64,000 bases of DNA from the NCBI GenBank assembly GCA_016789305.1, contig JAEURJ010000013.1, forward strand, positions 620,001 through 684,000, written 5' to 3'. The DNA is from Anaerolineales bacterium (lineage in GTDB: Bacteria; Chloroflexota; Anaerolineae; Anaerolineales; Villigracilaceae). How positions within the stretch are numbered: position 1 is the first letter of the stretch; each line of letters starts with the position of its first letter. The position numbers and the translations under genes are program-made. The notes beneath the pieces were generated by a model. It searched no databases. It was given only the letters and a program-made list of their open reading frames with translations, and was not told the DNA's origin. This document shows positions 12,959-18,666 of the stretch, one piece after another.

Positions 12959-15376
12959 CTATTTCGTGATCGAACCCAACAATTGATCGCGTATTGATTC
13001 GGCCAGAAACGTATTGTCTTCTTCCAATGTAACGACAAGAACCAGAGGTGTGCCGCCCCAATCTTGCACAGTTCCGGCGATTAACCAGGTGATGATCAGC
13101 TCATTGGCGCTTGCCTGCCCGGTATGACTCCAATAGGGCTTGTCCTGCACGATGAAGGCAACTGCCGCCTCATCCGCCGCCCTGGCTTGCAGCACTTCAT
13201 TTGGTTGACCTTCCGCTGGAAGCACCACCCATCCCTGCTCTGGTGTATCCACTGCCATCGATATTCGCGGCGCTGGAATGATGCCATGATTGCTCAAAGT
13301 GGAAGCGGCCAGCAACGCTTGCAAAGGGCTGATTCGCAAATCTTTGGGAGATGTGTTTAGGTCCGCCTGCGAGATCGGAATATTGAGTTGAGGCGCGCGA
13401 TACAACATCAGCGATGAATAAAGCTTCTTCAATTGATTATCTGACAGAGTTTCTTCTTTATATTGGGCACGGATCAAGGGTAGAAGACTAGTGCCGATCG
13501 GGTACAGTCCCTGTGTGGCGCGATTTAGCAATGGGGCAGCCTCATTAGATGAAAGGGCATCACCCTCTTCATCCAATTTATTCGGGTCGTAGGTTGGGTG
13601 TGAAGCCATCGCCAGAATTTCGCCGGTCTCGGCGTTCATCAAGATCAGAGCGCCCGTATGCCCGCCAAGAAGCTGGTCGGCTTTTGTTTGCAATCCAAAG
13701 TCGATACTTAATCGCACATCCAGGCCTGGCGGGGGGGTTCCGTACAATAAATGGTCCCACCAAATTAGGCTGGACGGATTACCTTTGATTCCTCGCAGGT
13801 AGTCATCCAAGGTGGCTTCCAGTCCGGCTTGTCCAAAAATAGGGTGGGTATACCCAAGAATGGGGGCGAGCTCCGGATACAAATAGACTCGCTCGTACGA
13901 ACCGCTCTCTCCTTCGGTTACAACGAAAGGCTTGTTGTTCCTGTCCAGTAAGTTGCCGCGTGGAACATATCGATCTGCGATGGCGCGCCGTGCATTGTCT
14001 GTTCGGCTCAGCAAATCCGGTCCGCGATAGAGAGCCCACCATCCTGCCGAAAACGCACAGGCAAACAGCCCCAGGGCAAGCATCCCTGTTAGTGTCGAAT
14101 AGGGTTTGTAATTGGAGAGTGCCGCTGGTTCGTTATCCTCTGGAACGCTGATAATGAGCAAGATGGTGATCGCGACAAAAGATGTTAAAAGCGATGAACC
14201 TCCATAGGAGACAAATGGCAGGGTGACCCCTGTTAGCGGCATTACCCGGATATTTCCGCCAATGATCAGCAGGCTTTGTATCCCAAGATAGGACACAATT
14301 CCAGCTGCGAGAAACCTTCGAAATCGATCTGGGGCCTTCAATGCAGTCATCATGCCGCGGGAAAGAATCACCCAAATAGTGGCGAGCAGGCCCAGGGTCC
14401 CGATCAGACCGGTTTCTTCTGCAATTGCTGCGAAGATAAAATCCGAGATAGCGACTGGCACCAGTGTGGGATTCCCCATGCCGGGGCCGCGTCCAATGAA
14501 GCCGCCGCTTGCCACGGCCAAAATGGATTGGACAATTTGATAGGAATTCCCGGAAGGGTCCGCCCAGGGGTTAAGCCATGCGTTGATGCGCACATTGATC
14601 ACACCAATGAAAAAATATCCGACCAGTAACGCCGCAAGGAGTGCAAGCCCGGAAGCGAATAGAACCCGTTTTTTTTCAGTTGAAATGAACAGAATAGTTG
14701 TGTAAATGAGGATGAAGATGGAAGCTGTTCCGAGATCACGCTGAACGAATAACAGTAAGAGCGCCAGGCCAGTCAGCAGGATGGTGGGCACAAGAAGTGG
14801 AAGTGAATTCAATCGAATGATGGGACGATCTGCAAGATAGGCTGCAAGGTAAATTACCAGCAATAATTTCAACGGTTCGGATGGTTGAAAATAAACACCG
14901 CAACACCCCAGCCATAAACGCGGTCCTATTCCCTGTGGGTTTGTACCAAACACAACGGTGAGCGCCGTCAGGACGAGCCCGCTTGCAAGAAGGATATATT
15001 TATAACGGCGAATGATTGGCAGATATCTATGCAGGCGTATCAATAACAGGATGATGAGTGTGCTGATTACAAGCCAAATGCCCTGTTTGAAGCCGAAATT
15101 TTCGTCCAACCGCCAAATCGTTAAGAGGCCCCATCCGGTAAGAAAAGCGGCGGCGGGAAATAAAAAGGGATCACGATCCTGCAGATACCTTGCACTCGCC
15201 TTGTGGATTATGTAAGTACAGGCCAGCCAGGCAAGATAACCAAGCCAATGCTGGAATTTGTAATCCACATCCCATGTTCTTTCACGAACAGCAGGTGAAA
15301 GAGTGAGAATTGTGGAATATATTAGAAGGAATAGTGCCGCCCAGCGTAATAGACGGGTTTGCATATTGTCTGTCAT
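12959..15376 (-). CDS. RodA/FtsW-type SEDS glycosyltransferase fused to a degenerate PBP transpeptidase domain
   Basis: The 805-residue protein has two parts. Residues about 1-425 are a multi-pass SEDS peptidoglycan polymerase. The conserved loop WADPSGNSYQIVQS carries the catalytic Asp (D273), and SDFIFAAIAEETGLIG is typical. Residues about 440-805 resemble a class B penicillin-binding protein: PRGNLLDRNNKPFV and GQAGLEATLDDYLRG match the pedestal. The transpeptidase motifs are broken. The S-x-x-K block (usually YPPGSTFKP) reads YPIGTSLLP around residue 630, and K-T-G reads SHTGQA with His 751. So the polymerase looks active and the transpeptidase does not; the second part may act only as a tethered activator. 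It lies downstream of the two FHA genes. Confidence 0.9.
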   Translation of the reverse strand: MTDNMQTRLLRWAALFLLIYSTILTLSPAVRERTWDVDYKFQHWLGYLAWLACTYIIHKASARYLQDRDPFLFPAAAFLTGWGLLTIWRLDENFGFKQGIWLVISTLIILLLIRLHRYLPIIRRYKYILLASGLVLTALTVVFGTNPQGIGPRLWLGCCGVYFQPSEPLKLLLVIYLAAYLADRPIIRLNSLPLLVPTILLTGLALLLLFVQRDLGTASIFILIYTTILFISTEKKRVLFASGLALLAALLVGYFFIGVINVRINAWLNPWADPSGNSYQIVQSILAVASGGFIGRGPGMGNPTLVPVAISDFIFAAIAEETGLIGTLGLLATIWVILSRGMMTALKAPDRFRRFLAAGIVSYLGIQSLLIIGGNIRVMPLTGVTLPFVSYGGSSLLTSFVAITILLIISVPEDNEPAALSNYKPYSTLTGMLALGLFACAFSAGWWALYRGPDLLSRTDNARRAIADRYVPRGNLLDRNNKPFVVTEGESGSYERVYLYPELAPILGYTHPIFGQAGLEATLDDYLRGIKGNPSSLIWWDHLLYGTPPPGLDVRLSIDFGLQTKADQLLGGHTGALILMNAETGEILAMASHPTYDPNKLDEEGDALSSNEAAPLLNRATQGLYPIGTSLLPLIRAQYKEETLSDNQLKKLYSSLMLYRAPQLNIPISQADLNTSPKDLRISPLQALLAASTLSNHGIIPAPRISMAVDTPEQGWVVLPAEGQPNEVLQARAADEAAVAFIVQDKPYWSHTGQASANELIITWLIAGTVQDWGGTPLVLVVTLEEDNTFLAESIRDQLLGSITK

Positions 15377-15425: not shown

Positions 15426-15902
15426 TTATTGATTGTCTTTTTCGAGCTTGATGGTCGGTGAAACAAAAACGTCCACTGAAATATTGACAAGCAGTTTGGC
15501 GTTGCCGCACTTTATCTCATCCCCTGATGTGATGACGGTCGGCATGTTGATCATGGTCTGATTAAGAAAGGTCCCGTTTGTGGAGGCCAGATCCTGTACC
15601 CACCATTGACCGTGATGGTAGCTTAACTGGGCGTGCCGTGTCGAGATCGTGTCATCGCCTTTGATCGGAATATCACAGCCAGGGTCACGCCCCATAATGA
15701 TCTCCGGTTGCGAGAAATGCCTTTCCGCTTGGGCCCCGCTGGCAGGTTGGATGGTAATCCCGATGTTTGGAACACGCCTGTTTGCAATGGCGTTTCCTTG
15801 TTTGTTGATGTCGCGCCATAAGAGGTAAAGCGCCCACCCTAAAAAAGAGTAAAGGGCGATTGCCATGGCAATGCGCAACACTAAAACGATGGAACCGCTC
15901 AT
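15426..15902 (-). CDS. Membrane-anchored FHA domain protein (FhaB-like)
   Basis: The 158-residue protein has one N-terminal transmembrane helix (IVLVLRIAMAIALYSFLGWA) and a C-terminal FHA domain. The phosphothreonine-binding landmarks are present: MGRDPGCDI (G-R), STRHAQL (S-x-R-H) and ASTNGTFLN (T-N-G). FHA domains read phospho-Thr on partner proteins. Size and topology match actinobacterial FhaB (FipA), which recruits cell-wall and division proteins. Its start overlaps the end of the FhaA-like gene by four bases (ATGA), and the SEDS-PBP gene follows after 49 bases. Confidence 0.88.
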   Translation of the reverse strand: MSGSIVLVLRIAMAIALYSFLGWALYLLWRDINKQGNAIANRRVPNIGITIQPASGAQAERHFSQPEIIMGRDPGCDIPIKGDDTISTRHAQLSYHHGQWWVQDLASTNGTFLNQTMINMPTVITSGDEIKCGNAKLLVNISVDVFVSPTIKLEKDNQ

Positions 15903-16726
15903 TCTTTTTTGAGGAATTTCGCCGTCGAGCGGGTTTCTTTGTTAAGAGTGGCGGTCGGTCGGTCTGACGTGGCTTTTTGGAGTGGGGCGGTATCTTTCAG
16001 GTCAGGGCGTGGAGGCGGGTTGTCCTGTCCGAAGATCAGGGAAACGCCGGCCAATGAGATCACATCGCCCGGATAGAGCACACTTTGGCTTGTGCGTTGG
16101 CCGTTGACAAAAGTTCCACCTGTTGAGTTTAGATCGAACACTACAAAACGGCCCTTGATGGATCGAAGCTGGGCGTGATTTCGTGAAACCCTTGGGTCGT
16201 CGATAATAAGTTGATTATCAAGCCTGCGCCCGATGTTGATCACCGGTGCGGCCAAAGGAAAAACCTTCACGCCTTCAACGATCAAAAAGGCATTCTCGGG
16301 AATGCTTCCATGATCGTCAGCTGGTTCTGGATTTTGAGGAGTTGCGTTTGTATCTGCCATGGGTTCCGCCCGATGCGATGCAATCACTTGCGCATCATTT
16401 AAGGATAGATTTACATCTGAAGATAAAGTGATGGATGGGGTGGTCGTGAACTTTAGTCCGATTTCATGAGCAACTGAGGTGATCGAATTTAATAGCACCG
16501 TCAGCAGCTTTTTATCCTGCCAGGCAGGTAAAGCCTCTGGGTTAAGTTGAAGTGTGTAGATATTGGGGGCAAATATCGATCCGTCTTCCAGGGTGATCGT
16601 GTTCAGCTGGATTGCACCTGCCAATTTTTGGACGATAACATCGTCCACCTTAACGCCTGGAATAATTCCCGGCAAATCGATCTCTATCAAGGCCTGCAAT
16701 CTTGCTTCAATTTCCTGTAAGTTCAT
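15899..16726 (-). CDS. DUF3662-FHA protein (FhaA-like)
   Basis: The 275-residue protein has an N-terminal region that looks like the DUF3662 domain of actinobacterial FhaA (LEDGSIFAPNIYTLQLNPEA), a Pro-rich linker, and an FHA domain near residues 150-235 with INIGRRLDNQ, VSRNHAQL and NSTGGTFVNG. In mycobacteria FhaA binds phosphorylated partners such as MviN and regulates peptidoglycan synthesis. Here it is the first of three genes in a probable operon with FhaB-like and SEDS-PBP. No Ser/Thr kinase or PP2C phosphatase gene lies nearby. A good minus-strand promoter lies 20 bases upstream of the start. Confidence 0.85.
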   Translation of the reverse strand: MNLQEIEARLQALIEIDLPGIIPGVKVDDVIVQKLAGAIQLNTITLEDGSIFAPNIYTLQLNPEALPAWQDKKLLTVLLNSITSVAHEIGLKFTTTPSITLSSDVNLSLNDAQVIASHRAEPMADTNATPQNPEPADDHGSIPENAFLIVEGVKVFPLAAPVINIGRRLDNQLIIDDPRVSRNHAQLRSIKGRFVVFDLNSTGGTFVNGQRTSQSVLYPGDVISLAGVSLIFGQDNPPPRPDLKDTAPLQKATSDRPTATLNKETRSTAKFLKKE

Positions 16727-16789: not shown

Positions 16790-17374
16790 TTATAGTGCTG
16801 AGTTACAGTTTGGACAGGTTTTGTCCCCTTTTTTGACCACAAACCCGCATTGACGGCATGTGCCGGGTTGAGCCATTCCAAGCGGTGCGCCACAAGCGAT
16901 ACAGGAAGCCTCACCAACAGGGTTTGCTGCGTGGCAGTATTCGCAAACCAATCGCTTCAGTTTATCTGATAATTCTGCAGATGCACCAAGGGATTTTACA
17001 GTTCTGGAAACGATCGTCCAAACTTTTTCAGTCAGTTGCAGGTTTTCGATATCTTGCGCGATATCGTCAAGCCGTCCCAGCAGGCTGAGGGGATTTCGAA
17101 TGGCGGAAAGCGCGCTTACACCAAGACTCGCCACGACCCCCAGCCAGGCTTGCTGCCCGACCTCCACCATGATCCCATCCTGATGAGACTGAACGGTGAT
17201 GGTCAATGCAGTTTGTCCGCCGGAACTTGCACCTGGATTTGTGTTCACCTGAACTGCCATCTTGTCGCTTTGGCCAAGGATCTGTGCGCGTAAATTCCCC
17301 TGATTAAACTCGGCAAGAAGCGCCTGTGCGATGTCAACTGGTTTGATATTACCGTGAAAGAATTTTCGTTCCAT
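16790..17374 (-). CDS. Double zinc ribbon protein
   Basis: The 194-residue protein ends in two zinc ribbons: CEYCHAANPVGEASCIACG and CRQCGFVVKKGDKTCPNC, each C-x2-C...C-x2-C. The first 130 residues are a separate domain; KPVDIAQALLAEF resembles the start of DUF3662/FhaA-type domains, but this is a weak impression. It sits directly upstream of the FhaA-like gene with its own short promoter region, so it may belong to the same envelope module as an adaptor. No enzymatic motif is seen. Confidence 0.75.
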   Translation of the reverse strand: MERKFFHGNIKPVDIAQALLAEFNQGNLRAQILGQSDKMAVQVNTNPGASSGGQTALTITVQSHQDGIMVEVGQQAWLGVVASLGVSALSAIRNPLSLLGRLDDIAQDIENLQLTEKVWTIVSRTVKSLGASAELSDKLKRLVCEYCHAANPVGEASCIACGAPLGMAQPGTCRQCGFVVKKGDKTCPNCNSAL

Positions 17375-17390: not shown

Positions 17391-17421
17391 CTCTTTGGAA
17401 ATCTACTTAGAGATTTACGTA

Positions 17422-18045
17422 ATGCATCGAATCAAGTTTCAACTTCTCGCAACTTTCCCCATTTTCCTTTTGCTTGTTTGGTCCTTGTTCGCCTCTTGTC
17501 TGACCAATGTGCTGGCTCAGGAACCTGAGGCATCGTCCACGCCTGCCGTATCGGGCATATTCATCACGGTTTTAGGCGATGAACCCTTTGCCAATATACG
17601 TACGGGCCCAAGTGCATCCATCTATCCGGTGATTGGACAGCTGCGCCCCGGTGATACAGCTCCAGCGTTGGGCAGGTCGCCGGGTGGGGATTGGATTCAA
17701 ATTGAATTTCAAGGTGCGCCAAATAACAAGGGATGGGTATACTCTCCGCTTGTGGTGCTTTCCCCTGGTACATTGCAAATTGCCGAGCCACCGCCAACCC
17801 CGGTTCCTCCCGCCACCTCCACTGTTGACCCGACTTTGGCTGCGCAGTTTTCGATCCTGCCTACAAATACCCGTCTGGCGACATTTACAGCACCCGCTCC
17901 GCTGAACACTCTTGCCTTCACTGAAGCTCCTGTCAAAACCGAGTCGGATCCCGTCCCAATGGCATTGGTGATCTTAACCCTAGGCGGCTTTGGGTTAATC
18001 GGTTTTGTTCTATCCCTGTTATTACCCCGTCGTTCATTCTCCTGA
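17422..18045 (+). CDS. SH3-like surface protein, C-terminal membrane anchor
   Basis: The 207-residue protein has an N-terminal signal sequence (FQLLATFPIFLLLVWSLFAS), a bacterial SH3-like domain at about residues 40-110 (ANIRTGPSASIYPVIGQL then GGDWIQIEF), a Pro/Thr-rich stretch and a C-terminal transmembrane helix followed by PRRSFS. Such domains often bind cell-wall components. The ATG at 17422 is preferred to the upstream TTG at 17395 because the signal peptide begins there. Three bases separate it from its paralogue; the pair is divergent from the envelope cluster and may be part of it. Confidence 0.8.
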   Translation: MHRIKFQLLATFPIFLLLVWSLFASCLTNVLAQEPEASSTPAVSGIFITVLGDEPFANIRTGPSASIYPVIGQLRPGDTAPALGRSPGGDWIQIEFQGAPNNKGWVYSPLVVLSPGTLQIAEPPPTPVPPATSTVDPTLAAQFSILPTNTRLATFTAPAPLNTLAFTEAPVKTESDPVPMALVILTLGGFGLIGFVLSLLLPRRSFS

Positions 18046-18048
18046 TCT

Positions 18049-18666
18049 ATGTACAAAAGACACAAGGTAATATGGATCGGTCTTTTTATGGCGCTGTTTT
18101 TATGCGCCCTCACTTTGGTTTCCCCAACGCATTCCTCAGTCCAGGCACAGCAGCCAACGGGTTCGATTCCAACGGTTACAGGAACAGCTTCCGGGGCGGT
18201 TGTAGCGGTGGATTTGTCCATTCCTTATGTCAGCGTATATTCCGGTCCAAGTACCTATTTTTATCCTGCCATCGGAGTTTTAATTGCCGGTCAGGAAGTG
18301 CCGGCATTGGGATATTCGGAAGACCAGAATTGGCTGCAAATATATTACCCGGGCGTGACAGACTCGGTCGCATGGGTGTACGGACCGTTTGTGAAGATCG
18401 TTAAATCCGGGAGCCTGCCAATTTTAGCGGCTCCCTCCACGCCGACGCCTGCCTCCACGCCGACGATCAACCCGACCCTTGTGGCTGCATTTATTATCCC
18501 TGTCACACCGACACGTTTGGTTACATTTACGGTTCCCGCGCCTTTGGTTCTTCCATCTTTTGAAGAACAGACAGAGGCATCTGGTCTGCCAGTCGGTTTG
18601 TTGATTTTCGGCTTGGGGTTTATCGGCGGGTTGGGGGTTTTGATCTCGTTCCTGCGTGGCAGATAA
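18049..18666 (+). CDS. SH3-like surface protein, tandem paralogue
   Basis: The 205-residue protein has the same layout as the preceding gene: signal sequence (VIWIGLFMALFLCALTLV), SH3-like domain (VSVYSGPSTYFYPAIGVL, NWLQIYYPG), Pro/Thr-rich linker and C-terminal helix ending FLRGR. The two share closely similar linker and tail segments (PTRLVTFTVPAPL here, TRLATFTAPAPL there), which shows duplication. In this copy the usual N-x-R-x-G-P motif reads VYSGPS. A strong terminator follows. Confidence 0.8.
   Translation: MYKRHKVIWIGLFMALFLCALTLVSPTHSSVQAQQPTGSIPTVTGTASGAVVAVDLSIPYVSVYSGPSTYFYPAIGVLIAGQEVPALGYSEDQNWLQIYYPGVTDSVAWVYGPFVKIVKSGSLPILAAPSTPTPASTPTINPTLVAAFIIPVTPTRLVTFTVPAPLVLPSFEEQTEASGLPVGLLIFGLGFIGGLGVLISFLRGR

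Follow-up and report, generated by a model that had tools for sequence, protein, structure and literature searches.

Anaerolineales carry a third cell-wall polymerase, which is permanently fused to a long-dead penicillin-binding protein (PBP) domain still held by selection. As listed in Table 1, a single uninterrupted ORF in the window (the whole stretch of 64,000 nucleotides analyzed here, from an Anaerolineales bacterium) encodes an 805-residue protein in which a SEDS half is followed by a class B PBP half of the PbpA type. By the features tested, the protein is a member of the SEDS family; it has a PBP fold but is not a penicillin-binding transpeptidase. A crosslinking enzyme seems to have been converted, in the course of evolution, into the built-in helper of a polymerase. 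The Pfam model FTSW_RODA_SPOVE (PF01098) matches residues 94-411 (E=4.6e-71, 240 bits, cut-off 26.4), and the match of the Transpeptidase model (PF00905) is limited to residues 575-626 (E=7e-9), stopping just short of the active site. PBP_dimer_2 (PF21922, PbpA dimerisation) matches residues 485-550 below its cut-off, and the NCBIfam matches are to FtsW/RodA/SpoVE and PBP2 models, all under the equivalog cut-offs. The linker between the SEDS domain and the transmembrane (TM) helix of the former PBP is about 12 residues long.

Table 1. Features of the fusion locus (coordinates in the window; residue numbers refer to the fusion protein; AF2, AlphaFold2)
Feature	Coordinates	Strand	Basis
SEDS-PBP fusion gene, 805 aa	12959..15376	-	ORF and profile matches
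Two additional N-terminal predicted TM helices, residues 2-64, ahead of the ten SEDS helices	15185..15373	-	AF2 helices 2-32 and 43-64; TM assignment inferred
SEDS glycosyltransferase domain, residues 66-412, with D273 and E167	14141..15181	-	PF01098; folds 8bh1 and 6pl6
Short linker and sole TM helix of the former PBP, residues 413-450 (helix 424-450)	14027..14140	-	AF2 model
Juxtamembrane stretch GPDLLSRTDNARRA, about residues 451-464; conservation far higher in dead than in active homologues	13985..14026	-	Alignment
PBP pedestal, residues 465-555; conserved RG, R496, G508, G515, E520, L527, G529	13712..13984	-	Alignment; PF21922 below cut-off
Pseudo-transpeptidase domain, residues 556-805, PBP fold without catalytic motifs	12962..13711	-	M. 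tuberculosis PbpA 3upp, Z 36.2; alignments
Former S-x-x-K, now T-S-L-L, residues 629-632	13481..13492	-	Alignments
Former K-T-G, now H-T-G, residues 751-753	13118..13126	-	Alignments
FhaB-like membrane-anchored FHA protein, conserved neighbour	15426..15902	-	PF00498; NCBIfam FhaB E=5.7e-22, below cut-off; synteny
FhaA-like protein (FhaA_N and FHA), conserved neighbour	15899..16726	-	PF12401, 25.7 bits (cut-off 25); PF00498; synteny
Zinc-ribbon protein, conserved only among close relatives	16790..17374	-	Profile match; synteny

A first, sequence-only reading of this DNA claimed that the PBP half keeps its pedestal motifs but that its S-x-x-K block reads G-T-S-L-L-P, with loss of the lysine, and that its K-T-G reads H-T-G. 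The pedestal residues are indeed conserved (Table 1), and G-T-S-L-L-P was confirmed at residues 628-633. In L-INS-i alignments with intact homologues, TSLL falls on SxxK and HTG falls on KTG, while the S-x-N stretch is deleted. The letters H-T-G are thus real, but they are no surviving motif, because the H is found in only 26% of 57 non-redundant dead homologues. A regular-expression search of the whole PBP half found no K-[ST]-G, and its sole S-x-x-K is SITK at residues 802-805, the last four residues of the protein and distant from the active-site position. The S-x-N stretch is deleted across the genus and is GCP-like where it is retained in other Anaerolineales. The spacing between the S-x-x-K and K-T-G positions has a median of 122 residues in the genus versus 213 in intact homologues, so some of the helical lobe is missing. 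It was ruled out, by L-INS-i alignment of dozens to more than 200 sequences and by the regular-expression search, that a gapped alignment restores Ser, Lys and KTG. Chance, frameshift and sequencing error were also ruled out: the identical loss occurs in dozens of independent genomes, and a sequencing error is no explanation because the loss is present in every Anaerolineales fusion homologue read.

The structure of the fusion was predicted with AlphaFold2 from an alignment of 45 sequences (mean pLDDT 88, pTM 0.81). The model has an FtsW-like and a PbpA-like fold in one chain. Its residues 68-416 align with Pseudomonas aeruginosa FtsW (8bh1) with a Z score of 36.8 over 327 residues, and Thermus thermophilus RodA (6pl6) matches the SEDS domain with a Z score of 33.4. 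Residues 465-805 align with Mycobacterium tuberculosis PbpA (3upp) with a Z score of 36.2 (336 of 445 residues, rmsd 3.0). PbpA-type enzymes are the best match of the PBP half by sequence search as well as by structure. In the model, the helix expected to begin at the catalytic serine starts only at residue 632.

In the SEDS half, the catalytic aspartate and the conserved loops described in the sequence-only reading were found in place. D273 lies in the loop equivalent to that of Escherichia coli RodA D262 and is invariant in 45 of 45 Anaerolineales fusions; E167 is invariant in Anaerolineales, where the SYGG loop is also kept. The SEDS half is expected to polymerise lipid II into glycan strands. 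Outside the order, the position aligned with D273 holds E, N, G, A or Q at loci L175, L177-L179, L196, L199, L201, L206, L207 and L211. This drift in other families of the SEDS subfamily is seen beside both dead and intact PBPs.

How widespread is the dead fusion? The locus is present in 34 of the 36 other genomes of the genus, and the two lacking it are 71% and 77% complete. Homologues, fused or split, were found in most families of Anaerolineales, and S-x-x-K and K-T-G are gone from all Anaerolineales homologues read, split pairs included. Across Chloroflexota, 53 PbpA-like loci have the motifs and 164 do not (the 164 are redundant, some having been fetched twice). All SEDS-PBP fusions read in the class Anaerolineae are catalytically dead. 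The only intact fusion found in Chloroflexota, L193 (5156-8056, minus strand), belongs to another part of the phylum; with its intact STFK, SSN and KTG, it serves as a natural control that was fused without catalytic loss. Apart from L193, the intact PbpA-like proteins are encoded by separate genes, usually adjoining a SEDS gene.

The fusions are nearly all full length, the exceptions being contig ends and one frameshifted assembly. In the two-contig genome G017 (78% complete), the fusion L045 (4392-6946, minus strand) is split over several frames, most likely by sequencing indels. Two genomes of one genus differ from each other: the PbpA of L137 (1396-2826, plus strand) is fully intact, with SCN as its S-x-N, and that of L178 (4128-5267, minus strand) has kept KTG, while the stretch from S-x-x-K to S-x-N has become a low-complexity GEL/ELE run. 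The change in L178 is either a recent loss or an assembly artefact. Genome G041 carries both a dead fusion (L051) and a second SEDS gene paired with an intact class B PBP (L066, 272-3792, plus strand; GSTFK and KTGT), with an FhaB-like gene nearby.

Did the fusion or the catalytic loss come first? Trees were built from the SEDS domain alone and are therefore blind to the state of the PBP. On these trees, the catalytic state changed at least once (quick tree) or at least twice (careful tree), and the fusion state changed at least six times; such counts are independent of the root and do not by themselves distinguish gain from loss. The second catalytic change on the careful tree is L211 (4970-7630, minus strand), a second, phylogenetically separate dead fusion within an otherwise intact clade. 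Some dead split pairs are sisters to dead fusions (L203 with L206/L207, and L205 with L183-L187), and the split L056, L060, L064 and L065 sit beside the Anaerolineales fusions. The simplest reading is that catalytic death came first and that fusion followed later and repeatedly, since the loss needs two changes versus at least six for fusion and since split dead pairs are sisters to fused dead ones. The dead split pairs may instead have arisen by secondary splitting of fusions. In any case, fusion and catalytic death are not tied by necessity, because L193 is fused yet intact and natural fusions are cited elsewhere.

The dead domain is under purifying selection. Among the closest pairs, with distant saturated pairs left out, dN/dS values (NG86) are approximately 0.04-0.15 (SEDS part), 0-0.19 (pedestal) and 0.06-0.15 (dead transpeptidase part). 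A comparison of conservation covered the 57 non-redundant dead homologues and 30 intact ones. The column entropy of the pedestal is 1.88 in dead versus 2.08 in intact homologues, and that of the transpeptidase part is 2.30 versus 1.68. R458 is found in 95% of dead versus 40% of intact homologues, D460 in 93% versus 30%, and N461 in 98% versus 70%. Residues that make up S-x-x-K, S-x-N and K-T-G are present in about 100% of intact homologues but only at background level in dead ones. In sets matched for SEDS divergence (mean SEDS identity 0.47 dead and 0.46 intact), the identity of dead versus intact homologues is 0.56 versus 0.34 in the juxtamembrane stretch, 0.40 versus 0.36 in the pedestal and 0.33 versus 0.45 in the transpeptidase part. 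Judging from these alignments, the constraint has left the active site and now lies on the membrane-proximal part. In the known RodA-PBP2 complexes, the membrane-proximal part of the PBP faces the SEDS protein.

The genome is not short of other wall enzymes. It has complete sets of RodA with PBP2 (contig C5) and FtsW with FtsI (contig C12), as well as two class A PBPs. In addition, contig C24 (about 320-323 kb) carries an orphan class B PBP (L002, 325-2607, plus strand), which has a MecA_N (NTF2-like) domain, an intact SVFK and an intact KTG. It has no SEDS gene of its own, and PBPs of its type are common in Anaerolineae. Of the genomes whose PbpA is dead, 36 of 40 encode a PBP of this type, versus 18 of 45 of those whose PbpA is intact (p about 1e-6); counted by family, the figures are 12 of 15 versus 11 of 28 (p=0.02). 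Neither p value is corrected for descent, and the association is not phylogenetically independent. The orphan PBP could crosslink strands in trans.

What might the dead half do? I think it somewhat probable that the fusion is a polymerase with a built-in, non-catalytic activator and that it descends from the RodA-PbpA pair of an FHA locus. In an ancestor inside Anaerolineae, the transpeptidase active site would have disappeared from the PbpA partner, which the SEDS polymerase would nevertheless have retained as a subunit without catalytic function. Fusion of the two genes would have followed in Anaerolineales and, on separate occasions, in other families. The SEDS half would make glycan strands from lipid II, and the TM helix, juxtamembrane segment and pedestal of the former PBP would rest against the SEDS domain and keep it in, or bring it into, the active state, possibly controlled by the neighbouring FhaA and FhaB. 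Another PBP, acting in trans, would crosslink the new strands; candidates are the orphan MecA_N-type enzyme and a class A PBP. The sequence-only reading had proposed such an activator with crosslinking done elsewhere; the ancestral loss, the later fusions, the conservation shift, the purifying selection and the intact transpeptidases of the genome all argue for it. Published work supports the activation of SEDS proteins by class B PBPs through contacts of the pedestal with ECL4, without any need for transpeptidation, which explains why FtsI homologues can be essential though their transpeptidase activity is dispensable (PMC8078798). An engineered RodA-PBP2 fusion polymerises when its transpeptidase is inhibited by mecillinam (PMC6207328), and polymerisation is governed by the opening and closing of the PBP (PMC10257715). 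The fusion resembles this non-catalytic role made permanent by evolution. In E. coli, the TM helix of PBP2 alone stimulates RodA (PMC10449877). Since that helix has an effect by itself, the about 340 periplasmic residues kept here under selection point to a further role, probably in docking or in some additional switching.

That the entire pseudo-transpeptidase fold is kept under purifying selection, beyond the pedestal, would also suit a docking platform, on which the SEDS half is active alone and the dead PBP recruits the trans-acting PBP, FHA proteins or hydrolases without allosteric activation. PBP2B, for example, has a structural, non-catalytic part in the assembly of the division complex (PMC5656894). 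Docking alone is nevertheless unlikely, as the gain in conservation is strongest near the membrane and in the pedestal, on the SEDS-facing side, and not in the distal domain. Another idea is that a fragment of the wall or another ligand is recognised by the altered groove and that the SEDS half signals rather than performs bulk synthesis. The loss of catalysis with retention of the fold, the adjoining FHA signalling proteins and the coverage of division and elongation by two canonical SEDS-class B PBP sets would agree with such a sensor. However, Anaerolineales retain D273, E167 and the SYGG loop, and the residues of the former active site are random across the class instead of being conserved anew, which makes a sensor quite improbable.

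Two further explanations have very little probability. Within the order, conservation extends to several polar residues (S592, N618, R619 and E785), as might be expected if the remodelled site were a cryptic transpeptidase with a different nucleophile. Those conserved across the class, however, are shared with intact enzymes, where they are presumably structural; no new Ser, Cys or Lys is conserved across the 57 dead homologues, and the lobe with S-x-N is deleted in the genus. The PBP half might also be a relic that drifts after a harmless fusion, and its transpeptidase part does diverge more than that of active homologues. Such drift is largely refuted by dN/dS values well under 1 in all three parts, and nearly all fusions are full length with a full PBP fold predicted. 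An activator built into the polymerase remains the favoured role of the dead half.

Natural SEDS-PBP fusions and dead class B PBPs, the latter as laboratory mutants, are already known. No description of a natural, ancient dead lineage that was repeatedly fused later, in Chloroflexota, was found in the open-access literature searched. The folds and the order of SEDS domain, TM helix, pedestal and transpeptidase are as in the RodA-PBP2 and FtsW-FtsI synthases and in the fusions engineered from such pairs (PMC6207328, PMC10449877), but here the fusion is natural and has no transpeptidase active site. One of these articles mentions natural single-ORF SEDS-PBP fusions, citing a genome paper by McLeod (reference 18 in PMC10449877). 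As far as they are described there, they have the same two domains in one ORF; the Chloroflexota fusions found here are all dead except L193. The McLeod paper reportedly concerns Rhodococcus RHA1. In Bacillus subtilis, a dead PBP2B (S309A) supports division if PBP3, a PBP2a-like enzyme, is present to crosslink (PMC5656894), resembling the present genome with its non-catalytic class B PBP and its MecA_N-type PBP. The B. subtilis protein is a laboratory point mutant, whereas the loss described here is natural, ancient and spread over much of a class.

So far, the debate on whether class B PBPs matter to SEDS polymerases as activators apart from crosslinking has drawn on point mutants, inhibitors and structures. 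The present lineage offers a natural experiment, spread over much of a bacterial class, in which catalysis was lost, the pedestal and the membrane-proximal part were retained and sharpened, and the proteins were joined repeatedly. The chances seem about even that, in much of Anaerolineae, a PBP became once and long ago a dedicated non-catalytic SEDS activator and was fused several times only afterwards. This would be a natural proof that activation is separable from crosslinking, with an activator that beta-lactams would not acylate and with strands crosslinked by other enzymes. Being a single chain already, the fusion would lend itself to structural and biochemical work on how a SEDS protein may be activated when transpeptidation is absent.

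In Chloroflexota, this locus corresponds to the FhaA-FhaB-RodA-PbpA locus of actinobacteria. Immediately upstream of the fusion come the genes for FhaB and FhaA, as in most Anaerolineales and at many intact loci of the phylum, and the FhaA-FhaB gene order is common to dead and intact loci. The mycobacterial operon holds FhaA, FhaB, rodA and pbpA (PMC11898655), and the FhaA-FhaB-PstP-RodA-PbpA-PknA-PknB locus of M. tuberculosis likewise has a PbpA-type PBP and adjoining FhaA and FhaB in the same order. In contrast to that locus, there is one polypeptide here instead of two, and SxxK, SxN and KTG are lost. Also, a search of the genome at E<=0.001 gave no PASTA domain and hence no PASTA (PknB-type) kinase, which rules out control by such a kinase at this threshold. 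No kinase or phosphatase gene was seen among the immediate neighbours of the fusion. Divergent from the FHA genes, two similar small secreted or membrane proteins are encoded in tandem (17395-18666, plus strand), and they lie beside the locus in close relatives as well.
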